Both the position numbers and the translations under genes were made by a program. From positions 1 through 55,530 of the forward strand of contig JACRCN010000099.1 of the NCBI GenBank assembly GCA_016219005.1: a stretch of 55,530 nt of DNA, read 5' to 3'. The stretch comes from Deltaproteobacteria bacterium. Its GTDB lineage: Bacteria; Desulfobacterota; Desulfobacteria; Desulfobacterales; SpSt-501. Numbering within the stretch: position 1 is the stretch's first letter; each line of letters begins with the position of its first letter. This document shows, in pieces, positions 16,747 to 33,499 of this stretch. Below the pieces are notes generated by a model, which was given only the letters and a program-made list of their open reading frames with translations, made no database searches and was not told where the DNA came from.

Positions 16747-17616
16747 CTATTTTTTGGCGGGATTTTTTTTGAGTTCCTTCTCGACCGCCGCGGCTAAGGA
16801 CTCGAAGCTGCGGTCCCGCAGGCGCTTGCCGTTGACGAACACGGTCGGCACGCTGTTGACGCCAAGGCGATAGGCTTCTTCCAAATCCTTCTGCACGTGA
16901 TCCATCACGCGCGGGCTGTTGCGGTCCCTTTCCAGCTGTTCCTCGTTGAGCCCTGCCGCGTGCACGATTTCCTGGATCTTCTCGTCGTTCAACTGGTCAT
17001 GGAGCCTGAAAAACTCGTCGTGTACGACCCAGAACTTGCCTTGCAGGTGGGCGGCCTGGGCTGTCAAAGCCGCTTTGCCGGCGAACTTGTGGCTTTTCAC
17101 CAGAGGATAGTTTTTGAAAACGACCCGAACCTTGTCGGCGAAGGTCTCGAGCACCTGCTCGAGGACGGGCGCAAGGCCCGCGCAATACGCTCACTGGAAA
17201 TCGCTGAACACCGCGATCGTCACCGGTGCCTTCTCACGACCCCGATAGGGAGCGCCGGACGCGTTGATGTCGCGCACGTAATCGAGCTGGACCACGTCGA
17301 CCCGTTTGCCCTGGCGGTGGGTCACATAGATCCGCTCACCGTCCGGCGCCACGGCAATTCGCTCCGCCTGGGTTCCCACGTTTATTTTTTCGGTGAGGAC
17401 GCCGTCGCTGGTGTAGATGGAAAGTGCGCCGTCGTCGCTCAGCACGAACACCGATCTCCCATCGGCGGATACGGCCACGTCCAAAGGCCGGGCACCGGTG
17501 TCCAGGCCCTTGATGATCTCCCACTCGAGGGTTGCGGATGATGGGGCGGTTGAAAACATGAGCAGCGCCCACGTGACAAGAGCCGCCAAAGGCCGGATGG
17601 TGTTTCGACGCATCAT
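16747..17616 (-). CDS. Periplasmic DsbA-like selenoprotein (UGA = selenocysteine)
   Basis: Read through one in-frame UGA (17193-17191) this is a 289-residue secreted thioredoxin-fold protein. A signal peptide (residues 1-29) is followed by a short beta-propeller-like repeat region (about 40-115: ARPLDVAVSADGRSVFVL, AERIAVAPDGERIYVTHR) and then a DsbA-like domain beginning APVTIAVFSDFQ. The next codon is UGA and then AYC, so the active site becomes U-A-Y-C where relatives have C-x-x-C. Downstream the same frame keeps all DsbA landmarks: VFKNYPL, HKFAGKAALTAQAAH, QGKFW and the cis-Pro loop GVNSVPTVFVNG. A stem-loop 10 bases past the UGA could be the SECIS. GGAGG precedes ATG 17616. A standard caller would report two broken genes. 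The likely role is thiol/disulfide exchange; the substrate is unknown. Confidence 0.88.
17166..17180 (-). promoter_or_regulatory. Candidate bacterial SECIS hairpin
   Basis: On the minus strand CGGGC-CTTGC-GCCCG forms a 5-bp G+C stem with a 5-base loop, beginning 10 bases after the UGA codon. This is the distance expected for the SelB-binding hairpin of bacterial selenoprotein mRNAs. It lies inside the coding sequence, also as expected. Pairing was judged by eye. Confidence 0.55.
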
Positions 17617-17630
17617 GAGCACCTCCAAAA

Positions 17631-17683
17631 ATAAAAAAAAATAACGGCCCGCCGGGTTGACTCTCGTCGGGTCGTTATTTTTT
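17631..17683 (-). terminator. Rho-independent terminator after the Cys-tail response regulator
   Basis: A long hairpin between the response regulator and the selenoprotein: AAAAATAACG on one side pairs with CGTTATTTTT on the other, with an internal CCCG/CGGG helix. On the minus strand it ends in a run of U. The regulator's TAA stop lies inside the stem. The plus strand also has a T run, so it may work in both directions. Confidence 0.7.
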
Positions 17684-18253
17684 GATGAACTGCTGCAGGG
17701 TTCGCTGGGCACATTCCGGGCAATAGCTCGAGGTGATGTCCAGCCGGGCCTGCTCGTGGATGAACTGCTCCACGGGCACCCATGGCCCCCGGCCGGCTTC
17801 CCGGCCGGTGTCGTCCCGGATTTTCTTGCAGACGCAGCACATAGGCAGGATCTTCTGGTAGAGGTTGATGCGGCGCGCCAGTTCGAGCTTTTCCAGGCAG
17901 CGCTCCACGCGGAAGAACATCTCGGCGGACTCGCAGGGCTTGAGCATATAATCATCCGCCTGGTTCCGCAACGCCTCGATGGCGGACAGCATGTTGCCGA
18001 AGCCGGTCAGGACGATCACCATTATGGTGGCGTCGATTTCCTTCGAGCGCTTCAGCACCTGGATGCCGTCGGTCTTCTCCATGACCAGATCCGTGATGAC
18101 CAGGTCGAAATTGGAGGGGCGCATCAGCAGCTCCATCGCCCGGTCGCCGCTGCTGGCGCGCGTCACGAGATAGCCACGATTTTCGAGGTCTTCACCGAGG
18201 CCTTCCAGGATGATGGGGTCGTCATCGACCAAAAGCAGGTTGTACTTTTTCAT
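17675..18253 (-). CDS. Response regulator with C-terminal Cys-rich motif
   Basis: About 192 residues: a receiver domain (about 1-120) with acidic pocket LLLVDDDP, phospho-Asp in LVITDLVM, the Thr/Ser switch in VIVLTGFG and Lys in YMLKPCE. The tail (about 135-192) has CCVCKKIRDD, a Trp-containing stretch (WVPVEQFI) and SSYCPECA, the four-Cys motif often found at the ends of sensor kinases and regulators in sulfate reducers; it probably binds metal. There is no DNA-binding domain, so it acts by protein contact or as a relay. ATG 18253 is preferred because the receiver starts directly there; the frame remains open to ATG 18361, whose extra 36 residues look non-conserved. The nearest gene upstream is the GlmS-like protein, 210 bases away. 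Confidence 0.85.
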   Translation of the reverse strand: MKKYNLLLVDDDPIILEGLGEDLENRGYLVTRASSGDRAMELLMRPSNFDLVITDLVMEKTDGIQVLKRSKEIDATIMVIVLTGFGNMLSAIEALRNQADDYMLKPCESAEMFFRVERCLEKLELARRINLYQKILPMCCVCKKIRDDTGREAGRGPWVPVEQFIHEQARLDITSSYCPECAQRTLQQFIKK

Positions 18254-18463
18254 AACCTGACGGATCGGAATTTCCGAAGGGTGATCCAATGCCGGCCTGG
18301 TTGCGGATGCCGCCGCCGGCCCTCTGCCGGTTCGGGCACTCTGTCGCATCCCTATTTTCATAGCATGGGCTGATAGGAAAAACCATTCCTTTTGAGAACA
18401 AGGTTCGGAATCCAGGGCATCCGGCTCAAGAAAAAGGAGTTCCTGGCGCCGCGCTCCTTGGCC

Positions 18464-21400
18464 CTATCCCTTCACCTTGGCCGCTATGAAATCGCCCACT
18501 TTTTCCGCTGACCGCCCGAAGAGCTCGTCGATGGCAACGAGTTCCAGCAGGTCATCGCTCCAGCCGATGCTGTTTTCCTGGACGATGTTGCGGATGTGCT
18601 CGTATTTGCCGCCGAGTGCACGAATTTTCACGTTCAGCGGCACGGTTTCCATGAAGGTGATGTGCAGCAGCAGCAGATGCTCGATGCTGTTCGGCCGGGC
18701 CGGCGCCGAGGACAGCAGCGGGACCACCAGAATGCTGCGGTCGTCCTTGCGGCCCTTGCCGATGTAGACGTTGCCCTGGCGCACGATGGTGCGCTTGGAG
18801 CCTTTCAGGGTCTTGTCGGTTTCGACCCGGGAGGGGATGGTGCTGGTCGCGCCGCGCTTGTTCAGAACCTCGATAGCGGTGGCCTCGTCCGGCTCGCCCA
18901 GCAGGTTCAGGCCGGAAATCCGGTAGAGGATGGACCCCTCGATGTTGCGGATGACCCCCTGCAGGTTTTTGAGGACCAGGGCGTTGGACGGAGTGAGCTG
19001 AGTGTCCGAGAAGTTCTCCGCGGCCAAGGCTGCGAACAGGATGCCCTCCAGCCGTTCGCTGATGCGGCTGGTGCCCACCGTGACGGTCTTGGCCTGGTGC
19101 TTGATGGCATCCACCGGCCGGGCGAGGAAGCCGATGGCGTCCGCCAGCCGGTGGAGCAGCACCTGGACCAGGTTGGCGGCAGTGCCCTTCAGGCCGAAGT
19201 CAAGTTCGAAGTCGGACGCCGGCAGCCGCCCCGCCAGATATTTGAGCAGCAGCATGAGATCGGAGCTGGCGTCGTAGCCCACGGTGACGGGGAACTGCTT
19301 CTGGCTGCGCTTGCGTCGGAATTCGGCATAGAACTCGGCGATCTGCTCCCGGAAGCCCTTTTCCAGGACCAGCTCGAACATGTCGACCCCCCGCGCGGAG
19401 GCGTCGCTGACGGCCCGCTGGACGCTCTCGTGGAGACCGAAGAGGAAGCGTGAACCCTCGTGGATGGACAGGGCGGCGTAATATCCCCAGAGGTGGCCGA
19501 CCAGCGTGTTCAGAATGGGCGCCAGGTGTTCGTCGACCTTTGGGACTTGGAAGACGTCCTCCGCATACGGCGCGAACCGCTCCTCCCCTTCGTCGCAGAT
19601 CACTACCGGGATGGCCTTGTGCGCCTTGAATATGGCAGTGTCCTTGACGATGTCGCCGATGACGGTGGGGCGCGCCCCGGCGGCGCAGACGACGATCAGG
19701 GGTTCCGACGACAGGTCGATGTGCTTCTTGTCCTCCACGTAGTCCGAGGAGATGGTCTTGTAGCAGAGCTCGCTCAGCTTAATGCGGATTTCGTCGGCGG
19801 AGGCCTTGTTGGGTCCGCTGCCGACGGTGGCCCAGTACGTTTTGGTGACGGCCAGCCGCTCAGCCGAGGCCCGAATGCGCTCCGACATCGCCAGGACCCG
19901 GCGCATGTGGTCCGGCATTTCGAGCAGCCGCTGGATCTGGCCGGAAACGAAATCGTCGTCCCGCCGGCCTTTCAGCCGGGCGATGTGCAGCCCCAGCAGC
20001 GCTCCGGCGGTGATCTGGGCGTAAAAGGCCTTGGTGGACGCGACCGACATCTCGATGTCGCGGCCGCTGCTCGTGTAGATTACGCCGTCCACTTTGAAGG
20101 TGAGGTCCGAGTCCCGGCGGTTGACGATGGCCAGCGTGCGGGCCCCGCGTTCCCGCACCATGTCGACGGAGCGGTTGGTATCGGTGGTCGTCCCGGACTG
20201 GCTGATGGCGACGACCAGCGCGTCGGCCATCGACCCGTCGGCGGCGGTCTCGCTCATCGTAAAGCCGCTGAACTCAGAGGCCTTGAGCGCTTGGACCTGC
20301 ACGCCGGGGGTGTTCAGGTAGTGCTGCAGGATGTTGGCGCAGGCGAGAGCCGCTACACCGGCCGTGCCCTGGCCGATGAAGAAGATGCGCTTGACGGTCC
20401 CGTCGGCGATGGCCCGGTTGACCGCCGCCGGCACCGACTTTTCATCGAGGGCCGTGACAAGGCGCTTTTGTCCGTTGTCCTGGATTTTCCAGCGGTTCTG
20501 GAGGGTTTTCTCCACCGAAGCGGGGGACTCGGAGACCTCCTTCAGGAAATAGTGCGAATAATGCTGGCGATCGATATCGCGCGAGGTGAGTGCGGTGGTC
20601 TTGACATTCTGCTCCGTCAGCGCCACGGGGGTCCCGTCGTAGTACATGGCGGTGATCCCCTGCAGGCCGCCCGGTGCCTGTTGGTCCAGGACGAAGAGCT
20701 GGCCCTGGGTCTTGCCGGTCTTGCCGTCCACAATGGATTCGCCGTCGAGCCGGACGTAGGCGGAAGCCTCCTCGATGAACCCGTAGACCTCGGAGGTGGC
20801 CATGTAGTGGTCCGGGGCGATGCCGACGAAAATGGCTTGTCCGCTGCCGCGCTGGGCCAGAAAGAGCTTTCCCGGCGCGAGGCTCGTGTGCATGGCGATG
20901 GCGTGGGAGCCCTTGAAGCCGCCGACCGCACGCCGGAAGGATTCGGCCACGCCGAACCCCTGCCGCAGGTAGTGCTCGATCTGCAGCGGAATGATCTTGG
21001 TGTCGGTGGTGATATCGGCGTGGATGCGGCCGCCGCTGCGTTCGAAGGTTTCTTTGAGCTCTTGGAAGTTGTCGATGTCGCCGTTCAGACAGGCGTGGAT
21101 GATGCCTGTTTCGCCGGCGGCACCCGCCGCCCGGTTGTCGACCGGGTGGCAGTTGGCTTCGGTGATGGCCCCGACCGACGCCCAGCGGGTGTGGGCGTTG
21201 ATCGTGTGGAACTCGGCCGGGAACGGGATGATGGCATGCAGCAAGGGATCGGCCGCAATGGTGCGGCGCAGGAACCGGATGTTGTCACCCAGGCTGCCGA
21301 TTTCAACCGCCACCTTATAGGTGAACGTGACGGTGACGGCATTTCCGTGGCGATGGGCGGCGATCCCCTGGTTCAGGAGGGGTTGCAGGGCCAGCCGGCG

Positions 21401-22216
21401 GGTGAATTCCTCCTGCAGACGGCGCTCGCCCAGCGCGGCGCTGAAGCGCTCGTAGTCGGCGGCGCCGAGCGCGAACAGCAGCGAGATGCCGGCGGAGTCC
21501 CGGCCCCGCACCTCCATGCGGTCGATGCTGTTCAGGACCGCGTTGATGCCGCGGAAGACCTTGACGGCGGCGGTTGAGTTGCCGGAGCCGGCCAGGAGGT
21601 CGCGCACCTTGGTGATGTTGCCCAGGACTTCGGATCGCAGGCACCAGACGGCGTCCTTGAGATGCTCGATGCGCTGGGCCACGAGGTCGGCCTCCGCGGC
21701 GGGAAGCCGCCCGATCTGCTCGTCGAAGCGGCGGACCTCGCCGGCCAGGCACTCGCCCAGAGACACCGCGATACCGTCGACGTGCGCCTGGAGGGTTGCG
21801 TCGCCGAAAAGCGTGCAGAAGACATCCGGGCGTCTGCATTCACGCGCCCATTGCCCCACATCCGCGACGCAGTCCCCGCCGCCCAGGTAGGTGTCGGCCA
21901 GGCGACCGCCGCTCTTGCGGCAGGCGTCGAAGTGGTTGGTCCGGACACGCTCCGCCAGCTCCGCCAGGCGTGCAACGGGTAGGGTTTCCGGGGCCGAGGC
22001 CTGGCGTTTGAAGGCCACGATCCCGGCGATGCCGCAGCCGAGAAATGTGGCCCGGAGCGGAAACACCACCAGCGAACCGGTCGGAACACTCGCGAGGCTG
22101 CGGCCGAAATACACGGGCACGCCCAGCCGGCGGCCGAGTCGGAGGCGCGGAAAGGTGAAGGCGTGAAATGCGACAAAGCGGGCCCGCTGCAGGCACGAGA
22201 TCCAAGCTCGAATCAT
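18464..22216 (-). CDS. Giant GlmS-like amidotransferase/double-SIS protein
   Basis: A 1250-residue relative of glucosamine-6-phosphate synthase, which is normally about 610 residues. The class II amidotransferase signature CGIAGI begins at Cys61, not at residue 1 or 2. An insert of about 165 residues separates it from RGRDSAG (237-243), the counterpart of GlmS RGYDSAG. HTRWAS (342-347), ANCHPVDN and NGDIDNF follow. Two sugar-isomerase (SIS) domains come next: the first (about 600-770) with ISQSGTTTDT and VASTKAF, the second (about 800-960) with VGSGPNKASADEIRIKLSEL. A C-terminal extension of about 270 residues has no recognised match. If the amidotransferase works, the 60-residue leader must be removed or bypassed. 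A role in amino-sugar formation is inferred. AAAGGG precedes ATG 22216. Confidence 0.85.
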   Translation of the reverse strand: MIRAWISCLQRARFVAFHAFTFPRLRLGRRLGVPVYFGRSLASVPTGSLVVFPLRATFLGCGIAGIVAFKRQASAPETLPVARLAELAERVRTNHFDACRKSGGRLADTYLGGGDCVADVGQWARECRRPDVFCTLFGDATLQAHVDGIAVSLGECLAGEVRRFDEQIGRLPAAEADLVAQRIEHLKDAVWCLRSEVLGNITKVRDLLAGSGNSTAAVKVFRGINAVLNSIDRMEVRGRDSAGISLLFALGAADYERFSAALGERRLQEEFTRRLALQPLLNQGIAAHRHGNAVTVTFTYKVAVEIGSLGDNIRFLRRTIAADPLLHAIIPFPAEFHTINAHTRWASVGAITEANCHPVDNRAAGAAGETGIIHACLNGDIDNFQELKETFERSGGRIHADITTDTKIIPLQIEHYLRQGFGVAESFRRAVGGFKGSHAIAMHTSLAPGKLFLAQRGSGQAIFVGIAPDHYMATSEVYGFIEEASAYVRLDGESIVDGKTGKTQGQLFVLDQQAPGGLQGITAMYYDGTPVALTEQNVKTTALTSRDIDRQHYSHYFLKEVSESPASVEKTLQNRWKIQDNGQKRLVTALDEKSVPAAVNRAIADGTVKRIFFIGQGTAGVAALACANILQHYLNTPGVQVQALKASEFSGFTMSETAADGSMADALVVAISQSGTTTDTNRSVDMVRERGARTLAIVNRRDSDLTFKVDGVIYTSSGRDIEMSVASTKAFYAQITAGALLGLHIARLKGRRDDDFVSGQIQRLLEMPDHMRRVLAMSERIRASAERLAVTKTYWATVGSGPNKASADEIRIKLSELCYKTISSDYVEDKKHIDLSSEPLIVVCAAGARPTVIGDIVKDTAIFKAHKAIPVVICDEGEERFAPYAEDVFQVPKVDEHLAPILNTLVGHLWGYYAALSIHEGSRFLFGLHESVQRAVSDASARGVDMFELVLEKGFREQIAEFYAEFRRKRSQKQFPVTVGYDASSDLMLLLKYLAGRLPASDFELDFGLKGTAANLVQVLLHRLADAIGFLARPVDAIKHQAKTVTVGTSRISERLEGILFAALAAENFSDTQLTPSNALVLKNLQGVIRNIEGSILYRISGLNLLGEPDEATAIEVLNKRGATSTIPSRVETDKTLKGSKRTIVRQGNVYIGKGRKDDRSILVVPLLSSAPARPNSIEHLLLLHITFMETVPLNVKIRALGGKYEHIRNIVQENSIGWSDDLLELVAIDELFGRSAEKVGDFIAAKVKG

Positions 22217-31241: not shown

Positions 31242-33499
31242 GTCTCACGCTTCTCGACGCCATCGGCCGCACGCCGCTGATCGAAATCCGGCGCATGAAC
31301 CCGAACCCGCGGGTGAAGATCCTGGCGAAGCTCGAGTACCTGAACCCGGGCGGCTCCATCAAGGATCGGGCCGCGCTTTGCATGATCGAAGCCGGTGAAC
31401 GATCCGGCGAACTCACGGCCGACAAAATCGTGATCGAGGCCACCAGCGGCAACACGGGCATCGGGCTGGCCCTGGTGTGTGCCGTGAAAGGCTACCGACT
31501 GTTGCTGGCCATGTCCGAGTCCGTGAGCCTGGAGCGTCGCAAGATCCTGCGGGCGCGCGGCGCGGAAATCCTCCTCACCCCGGGCCACCTGGGGACCGAC
31601 GGCGCGATCGAGGAGGTCTACCGCCTGGTCCGCGAACACCCCGGCCGGTACTTTGCCGTGGACCAGTTCAACAACGCGGCCAACTGGATGGCCCATTATC
31701 GCGGCACGGCCGAGGAGATCTGGCATGAGACGGGCGGCGCGGTCACGGCCGTCGTGGCAACCATGGGGACCACCGGCACCCTCATGGGGCTCTCCCGGCG
31801 GCTGAAAGAATTGAACCCCGCCGTCACGATCGTGGGCGTGGAGCCGTATCTCGGGCACAAGATCCAGGGGCTGAAGAATCTCAAGGAGGCCTACTGCCCG
31901 GAGATCTTCGACAAGCAGCACCTGGACAAGAAAGTCAATGTCGACGACGAGGAGGCCTTTGAGGCCGCCCGGCGCCTGGCGCGCGAAGAAGGCCTGCTGG
32001 TCGGCATGAGCAGCGGGGCGGCCATGGCCATCGCCATCAAGGAGGCCAGCCTCCTGGCGGAAGGCGTGGTCGTTACTATCCTGCCCGACGGCGGGGAGCG
32101 TTACCTGAGCACACCGCTATTCTCCACGCAGGAAAAGGTGGAGCTGCACGTGTTCAACCTCCTCAGCCGTTCCAAGGAACTGCTGGAACCTCTCAAGGCC
32201 GAACGGGTTTCGATCTACACGTGCGGGCCCCACACCCAGAGGCGGCTGCAACTCGGCGAGGCGCGCCGGTTTGTCCTGACCGACCTGCTGCGCCGCTACC
32301 TGTGCTGGCACGGCTACGCGGTGACCCAGGTGGTGGACATCAGCGACATCGAGGAGGATGCCGGCGCCGCATCCGAGCGGGCGGCGACGGCCGGAGGGCC
32401 CGCCACCCGCACCCATCTCGAGCAGTTCATGCATGACCTCGACTGGCTTCGCATCCAGCCGGCGGAGCACTACCCCCGCGCGCGGGATCACGCCGACGCA
32501 ATGGTGAGCCTGGCCCGGAAGCTGGCCGCCAAGGGGTTCGCCTACGAGAAGCTGCGGTCGCTGTATTTCGACCTGTCACGGCTTCCCGCCTACGGCCGAC
32601 TGTCGGGGATCGACATTGCGAAGGTCAAGGCCCGCGCCGCCGTCGAGGCAGAGGCCTTCGAGAAGCAGAACTCACGGGACTTTGCCCTTTTCAAGCGCTG
32701 CCGCCTCTCCGAACTCAAGCGCGGCGCCTTTATAAAGACCGAATGGGGCAACGTGCGGCCCTCCTGGCATCTTCAGACGACCGCCATGGCCATGCACTAT
32801 CTCGGTGAACGGTTCGACGTTCACACGAGCAGCCGTGAACTGCTGTTCCCCCACCACGAAAACGAGAATGCCATCGCGGCGGCCCTCGAGGGCAAGCCGC
32901 TCGCCAATTACTGGATCCATGCGGATCGGGTGCTCGCCAACGGCCTCGGCCTTGCCGAGCTTCAGGCGATGGGTTTTTCCGGCCGCGAGACCCGCTTCTG
33001 GCTGATGTCGACCCATTACCGCCGGCCCGCCGCCGGTTCGGTTGCGCGTCTGGAAGATGTGCGGCGCAGCTTGCAGCGGTTGGACCGCTGCATCCAGGCG
33101 CTGATGCGGGTCGGCCCGGGACGGCCCTGCCCCGAGCTGGACCAGTTGATCTACGACATCCGGCAGGGGGTTCGCCGCGGCATGGATGACGACCTCGATC
33201 TGCCGTCCGTCATCGCCGCCGTCTTCCAGGCCGTGAAGCGGATCAACGCCTTCAGCGCGCAGGGTCTCATGGATGCCCGGGGAGCCGGTCGGCTCGTGGC
33301 CGCTCTCAAGGACATCGATGCGGTGTTGGGCATTTTCGACTTCAGCGGGACGCCGGTCCTCGAGGCGGAAATCCAGGAGCTGTTGGAGGCCCGGGAGAAA
33401 GCCAGAGCCGAGCGGCAGTGGGAGCGGGCGGACCGGATACGGGACGAACTTCGGGCGCGCAGGATCAGCGTGCAGGATCAAAGAGCGCCGCGCTCATGA
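31238..33499 (+). CDS. Cysteine synthase fused to a degenerate cysteinyl-tRNA synthetase
   Basis: A 753-residue two-part protein. Residues 1-300 are a complete PLP-dependent cysteine synthase of the CysK/CysM type: PLP-lysine in NPGGSIKDRA (Lys42), SGNTG at 70-74, GTTGT at 177-181 and MSSGAA near 260. Residues 303-750 align end to end with cysteinyl-tRNA synthetase: IYTCGP (329), a DISD segment (368), FPHHENEN (537) and a terminal ARAERQWERADRIRDELRARRI. However the ATP-binding HIGH motif reads QLGE (339-342 region), KMSKS reads VLANG (565-569), and one zinc ligand Cys is Thr514. The second half therefore probably cannot activate cysteine in the usual way. It may bind cysteine or tRNA as a sensor or be a new ligase. 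ATGA overlaps join it to tmk and to the next gene. Confidence 0.92.
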   Translation: MSLTLLDAIGRTPLIEIRRMNPNPRVKILAKLEYLNPGGSIKDRAALCMIEAGERSGELTADKIVIEATSGNTGIGLALVCAVKGYRLLLAMSESVSLERRKILRARGAEILLTPGHLGTDGAIEEVYRLVREHPGRYFAVDQFNNAANWMAHYRGTAEEIWHETGGAVTAVVATMGTTGTLMGLSRRLKELNPAVTIVGVEPYLGHKIQGLKNLKEAYCPEIFDKQHLDKKVNVDDEEAFEAARRLAREEGLLVGMSSGAAMAIAIKEASLLAEGVVVTILPDGGERYLSTPLFSTQEKVELHVFNLLSRSKELLEPLKAERVSIYTCGPHTQRRLQLGEARRFVLTDLLRRYLCWHGYAVTQVVDISDIEEDAGAASERAATAGGPATRTHLEQFMHDLDWLRIQPAEHYPRARDHADAMVSLARKLAAKGFAYEKLRSLYFDLSRLPAYGRLSGIDIAKVKARAAVEAEAFEKQNSRDFALFKRCRLSELKRGAFIKTEWGNVRPSWHLQTTAMAMHYLGERFDVHTSSRELLFPHHENENAIAAALEGKPLANYWIHADRVLANGLGLAELQAMGFSGRETRFWLMSTHYRRPAAGSVARLEDVRRSLQRLDRCIQALMRVGPGRPCPELDQLIYDIRQGVRRGMDDDLDLPSVIAAVFQAVKRINAFSAQGLMDARGAGRLVAALKDIDAVLGIFDFSGTPVLEAEIQELLEAREKARAERQWERADRIRDELRARRISVQDQRAPRS

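Follow-up and report, generated by a model that had tools for sequence, protein, structure and literature searches.

A probable DsbA-like selenoprotein with an N-terminal two-blade propeller fragment in a member of the Desulfobacterales

The window analysed in the current work, i.e. the whole 55,530-nucleotide stretch of contig JACRCN010000099.1 from a Deltaproteobacteria bacterium (order Desulfobacterales), carries on its reverse strand a gene that very probably specifies an exported DsbA-like thiol oxidoreductase with a catalytic selenocysteine (Sec), whose UGA codon would be read by means of the RNA hairpin at positions 17163-17146. The bases for this reading, demonstrated below, are the reading frame, a family alignment column occupied by either Sec or Cys, a conserved RNA hairpin, a fold match and the presence of selA, selB and selD in the genome. 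A first-pass annotation of this DNA had proposed a DsbA-like selenoprotein with a U-x-x-C active site, and it is the column, the bacterial SECIS (bSECIS) and the three sel genes that support this proposal. The features to which the text refers are the following (coordinates of the window, strand in brackets).

16747..17616 (-): whole gene, 289 codons plus stop, read through one UGA; from the frame translation and the 51 TGA and 30 Cys rows of the family
17191..17193 (-): UGA codon, residue U142; from the frame translation and the family column
17621..17626 (-): GGAGGT, likely ribosome-binding site, 4 nt ahead of the ATG; from the sequence
17533..17616 (-): likely signal peptide, residues 1-28; predicted from the sequence
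17281..17508 (-): two-blade (YVTN/WD-type) beta-propeller fragment, residues 37-112; from the 1l0q match and the AlphaFold2 model
16762..17274 (-): DsbA-like thioredoxin domain, residues 115-285; from PF13462, PF01323, the model and the 3gyk_B fold match
17182..17184 (-): Cys145, resolving Cys of U-A-Y-C; Cys in 81 of 81 rows
16846..16848 (-): Pro257, cis-Pro position, preceded by Val; from the family alignment
17146..17163 (-): bSECIS core hairpin CUCGAGC-AGGU-GCUCGAG; from covariation and folding
17166..17180 (-): small hairpin in the spacer between the UGA and the bSECIS core; from the fold and family pairing
17675..18361 (-): context, response regulator gene upstream on the same strand; from PF00072
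15061..16707 (+): context, pyrG, convergent neighbour, which also adjoins the gene in six other loci

The interrupted frame and its family

Translation of the frame confirmed the in-frame TGA at 17193-17191 with 141 codons before it and 147 after it, as had been claimed in the first-pass annotation, and placed it within the motif FQ-U-A-Y-C. Under translation table 11 the gene is presented as two ORFs (17955-17191 and 17154-16747), which is the splitting by automatic annotation that had been foreseen. The predicted signal peptide shows a basic start, a hydrophobic core and a Ser-Ser-Ala end; a lipobox is absent, and in the translated frame no Cys precedes residue 145 apart from the UGA-encoded position 142. 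No sigma-70-like promoter was found near the selenoprotein gene, and a search against Rfam at gathering scores returned no match anywhere in the window.

Relatives were collected from the same order, in which 172 of 291 genomes gave some match at E 1e-3, many of these being other DsbA-like proteins that do not contain the propeller part. From among the matches listed, 80 stretches were fetched, the window's own included, and one named Desulfobacterales contig was added; the latter turned out to be a copy of a fetched stretch and was removed, as was one fragment that does not contain the column of interest, leaving 81 distinct rows (window included), three of which are partial (under 200 residues). 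Outside this count stand further listed rows, for example G190, G191, G267 and G161, which carry TGA, and G128, G094, G175 and G279:C1:2742295, which do not.

The column corresponding to U142 is occupied by TGA in 51 and by Cys in 30 of the 81 rows, with no other state, and Cys145 is conserved in all 81. The UGA thus occupies the place of the first active-site Cys, as originally suggested, and the Cys homologues that were to be aligned across it are represented by the 30 Cys rows. Both halves of the protein proved to be conserved, since among the matches listed full-length relatives align across this codon with 31-51% identity. In a 78-row tree the TGA and Cys states are scattered and require at least 16 changes, 10 of which are forced by well-supported branches (the bootstrap being not quite settled). 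One genome (G215) holds one TGA copy and one Cys copy, while two TGA copies each occur in G279, G174, G254 and G211, and two Cys copies each in G016 and G038. Among viral contigs, seven pattern matches were obtained, none of which is a relative.

An RNA hairpin that accompanies the UGA

The stretch downstream of the UGA was compared between the 51 TGA rows (50 of them distinct over the hairpin stretch) and the 30 Cys rows. The bSECIS core occupies columns 31-48 counted from the T of the TGA, corresponding to window positions 17163-17146, and its helix is paired in 96.0% of cells in the TGA rows versus 87.0% in shuffled alignments, with changes on both sides in five of the seven pairs and a covariation of 0.301 versus 0.129 in shuffles. 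When the partner strand was slid by 1-3 columns, pairing reached at most 49.7%. The same helix is paired in 53.3% of cells in the Cys rows, a value near the 50.5% of the shuffles, and RNAalifold returned no consensus structure for these 30 rows. The SECIS rules that were applied (a minimum of 4 pairs adjoining the loop, a G among the first two loop positions and a minimum free energy of at most -7.5) are satisfied by 43 of the 51 TGA rows versus 1 of the 30 Cys rows; of the eight TGA rows that fail, four (L099, L114, L100 and L027) are mismatched within the stem and the other four do not reach the energy threshold. Synonymous identity at codons +11 to +13 amounts to 0.95-1.00 in the TGA rows versus 0.32-0.80 in the Cys rows.

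The hairpin of the window itself consists of 7 bp with the loop AGGU at a spacing of 34 nt (-10.7 kcal/mol) and lies within published bSECIS limits, the spacing approaching the maximum of 37. By itself this hairpin is not significant, 7 pairs being reached in 11.7% of 5000 randomisations of synonymous codons; the evidence for a bSECIS is comparative. The hairpin at 17163-17146 is a conserved element which fits bSECIS rules, is maintained in the TGA rows and has disappeared from nearly all Cys rows, and it is this family-wide element that bears out the expectation of a SECIS.

The first-pass annotation had pointed to a different hairpin, one beginning 10 bases downstream of the UGA. This structure does exist at 17180-17166 (-7.8 kcal/mol in the window), but it is not the SECIS core and it is only partly kept in the family. 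In the family register it is paired in 76.8% of cells in the TGA rows versus 61.5% in shuffles, and it covaries; in the Cys rows the corresponding values are 38.7% and 34.8%, and the window's own pairs are shifted by one column from the family register. It was not preferred as the SECIS, given that RNAalifold, when applied to the TGA rows, picks the second helix (the bSECIS core) alone. The spacer hairpin may serve as a helper helix.

Decoding of the UGA

The window's genome is a draft of 106 contigs with 4.67% contamination. Profile searches recovered selA on contig C55, two selB-like genes (378 bits on C89 and 281 bits on C100) and two selD genes, each with an in-frame TGA of its own (L184:13959-14885 and G000:C79:14164-15081; L184 corresponds to contig C100). 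Genus mate G005 also has two selD genes. The search for selA, selB, selC and selD that the first-pass annotation had called for was thus borne out for all genes except canonical selC, which was not found in the assembly (150 of 945 first-look candidates being scored). Four of the six genus mates (G001, G003, G005 and G006, at 74-78 bits) gave a canonical tRNA-Sec; none was found in the window's genome, in G002 or in G004. In G003 the gene begins right where a contig starts, and it is a fair guess that an assembly gap explains why it was not found in the window's genome. The eight other matches to the tRNA-Sec model that were analysed by ARAGORN in these genomes, or their neighbours, proved to be ordinary tRNAs (Leu, Trp, Ser, Arg and Tyr).

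A survey of the 73 other genomes with the gene, in which G215, holding both forms, was counted with the TGA group, gave selB over the cut-off in 37 of the 46 genomes with the TGA form and in 21 of the 27 that have the Cys form alone; in the selB list, hits about 400 aa long look like EF-Tu. Nine drafts with the TGA form have no selB over the cut-off. The presence of selB thus does not separate the TGA state from the Cys state, which counts against the selenocysteine reading.

The window's genome additionally contains a UCA tRNA at L184:7721-7812, which matches the Rfam tRNA-Sec model at 55.5 bits and is called tRNA-Sec by ARAGORN. By our reading of the letters it displays A1:U72, the discriminator U73, a UCA anticodon, an 8-bp acceptor stem and a T stem of 4 bp with a bulged A (a free fold shows no T arm), and these match the marks given for the selC* tRNA-Cys in the accessible portion of PMC7609411, according to which selB* and cysS* come after this tRNA in Desulfobacterales. 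Judged from its sequence, this tRNA is of the selC*-type tRNA-Cys and not a canonical tRNA-Sec. Downstream of it lies a SelB* that is 32% identical to the genome's other SelB, followed by a CysRS* in which the Pfam catalytic domain was found and the CysS_C anticodon-binding domain was not, while the CysRS encoded on C75 of the same genome does possess CysS_C. The cassette of selC*-type tRNA-Cys(UCA), SelB* and CysRS*, a rare kind of system, spans L184:7721-11068, and a SelD with TGA is among the ORFs beyond it; the other ORFs after the cassette we take to encode a 2-hydroxyacyl-CoA dehydratase, an activator ATPase and a SirA/YedF-like protein.

The same tRNA type occurs in two genus mates, namely in G005 (L185:4806-4897, C11), where SelB* is 74% identical over 493 residues, and in G006 (L095:1501-1592, C17), where a SelB begins behind the tRNA and is cut off by the contig end; contamination is thus an unlikely source of the cassette. 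The T-stem bulge of the G006 tRNA reads U, not A. In the window itself a diverged CysRS-like ORF is located at 32144-33484 (+) (253.8 bits, cut-off 340, open frame of 797 aa), and if it is counted the genome has three CysRS-like genes; it is also present in five genus mates, in four of them on the same contig as pyrG. Such selC* sets are, in the part of PMC9437257 available to us, posited to make selenoproteins with Cys under selenium scarcity and said to coexist with normal SelC and SelB, while the corresponding part of PMC11415595 describes a characterisation of the CysRS of these cassettes as missing.

These observations bear on what is inserted at the UGA. The codon might be read as Cys, either always or at low selenium, by the selC*-type tRNA-Cys(UCA), CysRS* and SelB*. 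The unfound canonical tRNA-Sec and the presence of the cassette, in which a UCA tRNA with selC* marks precedes SelB* and a CysRS devoid of CysS_C, both count against selenocysteine, and selC* sets are described in Desulfobacterales in the excerpts of PMC7609411 and PMC9437257 at hand. We nevertheless consider insertion of Cys unlikely, though a credible minor alternative: SelA, SelD (twice) and a canonical-type SelB are retained and would make little sense if tRNA-Sec were lacking, and G002 has selA, selB and selD yet likewise yields no tRNA-Sec, which, together with the contig-end position of this gene in G003, makes a gap plausible. Moreover, several genomes with the TGA form, such as G111, G124, G202 and G104 (all drafts), have a canonical-type SelB only. 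According to the selenocysteine reading, SelB bound to the hairpin at 17163-17146 would deliver Sec-tRNA-Sec to the UGA at 17193-17191, and the ribosome would read through it to produce the 289-residue protein. Rather unlikely, in our estimation, is a compound case in which one UGA and one hairpin serve both Sec insertion by SelB and tRNA-Sec when selenium is present and Cys insertion by SelB*, selC* tRNA-Cys and CysRS* when it is not, and in which two-blade fragments form a closed propeller holding several Sec-DsbA domains.

That the UGA is a real stop, which would leave a pseudogene or two separate proteins, agrees with the two ORFs of standard annotation and with further stops in a few other family copies: among the matches listed, TAA or TAG lies inside the match in three fetched rows (G261, G020 and G014) and a second TGA in that of G254:C688, so that some family copies may be broken, which counts against the selenocysteine reading. 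A true stop is nonetheless highly improbable and is refuted at the family level, since 51 of 81 rows have TGA at this very position and all remaining rows have Cys, the sequence past the TGA is conserved and the hairpin codons are constrained in the TGA rows only. Homologues ending at the same codon in close relatives, which the first-pass annotation had named as grounds for abandoning its proposal, were not encountered in the genus mates, none of which shows a full-length copy. The draft state and the contamination of the assembly might suggest that the TGA is a sequencing or binning error; this we regard as the most improbable explanation, refuted by the family comparison in that the same TGA stands in 50 other rows, and the flanking pyrG and response regulator are near neighbours in genus mates too.

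Predicted architecture, genomic context and comparison with known systems

The C-terminal part of the protein matches PF13462 (5.6e-26, residues 122-280) and PF01323 (9.6e-20, residues 133-267). The full AlphaFold2 model, built from 16 sequences, has a mean pLDDT of 86 and exceeds 90 in the DsbA-like part, and residues 115-285 of this model match 3gyk_B best, followed by BdbD, DsbA2 of Wolbachia and ScsC. A thioredoxin fold with a helical insert, a UxxC motif and a cis-Pro, by which DsbA-like oxidoreductases are defined, are all present in the predicted protein. A Val preceding the cis-Pro is typical of DsbA, while Thr is typical of reductases and isomerases; the window protein has Val at this position whereas Thr is found in 65 of 81 rows (two of the 81 lack the column), so that the redox direction may differ within the family.

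Ahead of this domain, residues 37-109 match 1l0q, a YVTN S-layer protein. For the N-terminal part (residues 29-122) a separate AlphaFold2 prediction was made from two sequences (mean pLDDT 76), and the resulting model matches propellers, namely hydrazine synthase beta, the YVTN S-layer protein 1l0q and 6r5x, the last being an eight-bladed propeller formed by four two-bladed fragments; many WD40 chains match at Z 10-11. The short propeller-like region that had been noticed ahead of the thiol domain is thus identified as a two-blade fragment. W32 and U142 stand 107-114 residues apart in the 79 rows with the column, and 110 apart in 72 of these 79, a near-fixed spacing which indicates that the fragment keeps two blades. 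Because two blades cannot close a propeller, the fragment may act as an oligomerisation or docking module, and such fragments might conceivably assemble into a closed propeller.

In our judgement, the protein would work as an exported oxidoreductase of the selenol/thiol kind whose catalytic cycle passes through a selenenylsulfide. The signal peptide would export the protein, Sec142 and Cys145 would alternate between a selenolate/thiol pair and a selenenylsulfide, and disulfide exchange with substrates would take place outside the cytoplasm.

Elsewhere in the order the gene adjoins pyrG at six loci, and the copies from five of these form a group with the window gene in the phylogeny, at a support of 90/90 that stays below the starred level; none of the six genus mates (drafts 80-100% complete) shows a full-length copy. 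In five genus mates 46-351 bp separate the aligned end of pyrG from that of the response regulator, versus 974 in the window; G006 has a weak match of 15 residues to the regulator 1452 bp away, with no match to the gene in between. Horizontal gain is not supported, given that the pyrG neighbourhood is shared by six other loci of which five cluster on the tree, and loss of the gene in the genus mates is the simpler reading. Across the family loci compared, no conserved redox gene was found among the neighbours. A 1250-residue ORF at 18464-22216 (-) of the window presumably encodes a glutamine amidotransferase/SIS (GlmS-like) protein with extra domains, and four other loci have a relative of this ORF upstream of the selenoprotein gene.

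The family is common in its order, and standard annotation would split or truncate its members. With 51 Sec-type and 30 Cys-type versions of one enzyme and many independent switches between them, it allows the benefit of selenium in disulfide chemistry outside the cytoplasm to be addressed. Since the genome holds a Sec apparatus (tRNA-Sec unfound) along with a UGA-to-Cys cassette, the gene also offers a test of dual UGA reading.

With respect to known systems, a DsbA-like selenoprotein (pfam01323, UxxC) has been listed since 2006 (PMC1794560; also PMC9312934 and PMC13188914, each as far as the text at hand extends); the consulted part of PMC2398784 has 'DsbA 1' as the corresponding GOS entry, and a TGA-bearing example from Desulfovibrio desulfuricans appears in that of PMC1914089, a screen of 2007. 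In these proteins, which the same partial sources list for deltaproteobacteria such as D. desulfuricans, Sec replaces the first Cys of CxxC, as it would here; the window protein differs, in a comparison made by descriptions only, by the two-blade propeller fragment placed ahead at a near-fixed spacing. The word 'propeller' is absent from the main texts of PMC13188914, PMC9312934 and PMC2398784, and no mention of a propeller joined to a DsbA selenoprotein was found in the literature searched. NF041057, the Rcas_1661 family (seleno)lipoprotein described as DsbG-like in the available portion of PMC13188914, shares the thioredoxin-like domain with UxxC and matches residues 113-280, but the score is 70.6 bits versus a cut-off of 190 and the window protein has no lipobox Cys. 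Among proteins of known structure, 3gyk, BdbD, ScsC and BcfH match residues 115-285 at Z 24.1, 22.9, 22.6 and 20.8, with rmsd values of 1.7, 2.3, 1.9 and 1.9 over 168, 174, 166 and 172 residues, respectively; they differ in sequence (20-27% identity), and the propeller fragment lies outside the bulk of the alignments. Finally, the tRNA features, the gene order and the missing CysRS domain all fit the selC*-selB*-cysS* cassette (Mukai 2017, as conveyed by the accessible parts of PMC7609411, PMC9437257 and PMC11415595), which in this genome lies apart from the selenoprotein gene and bears on the residue inserted at its UGA.
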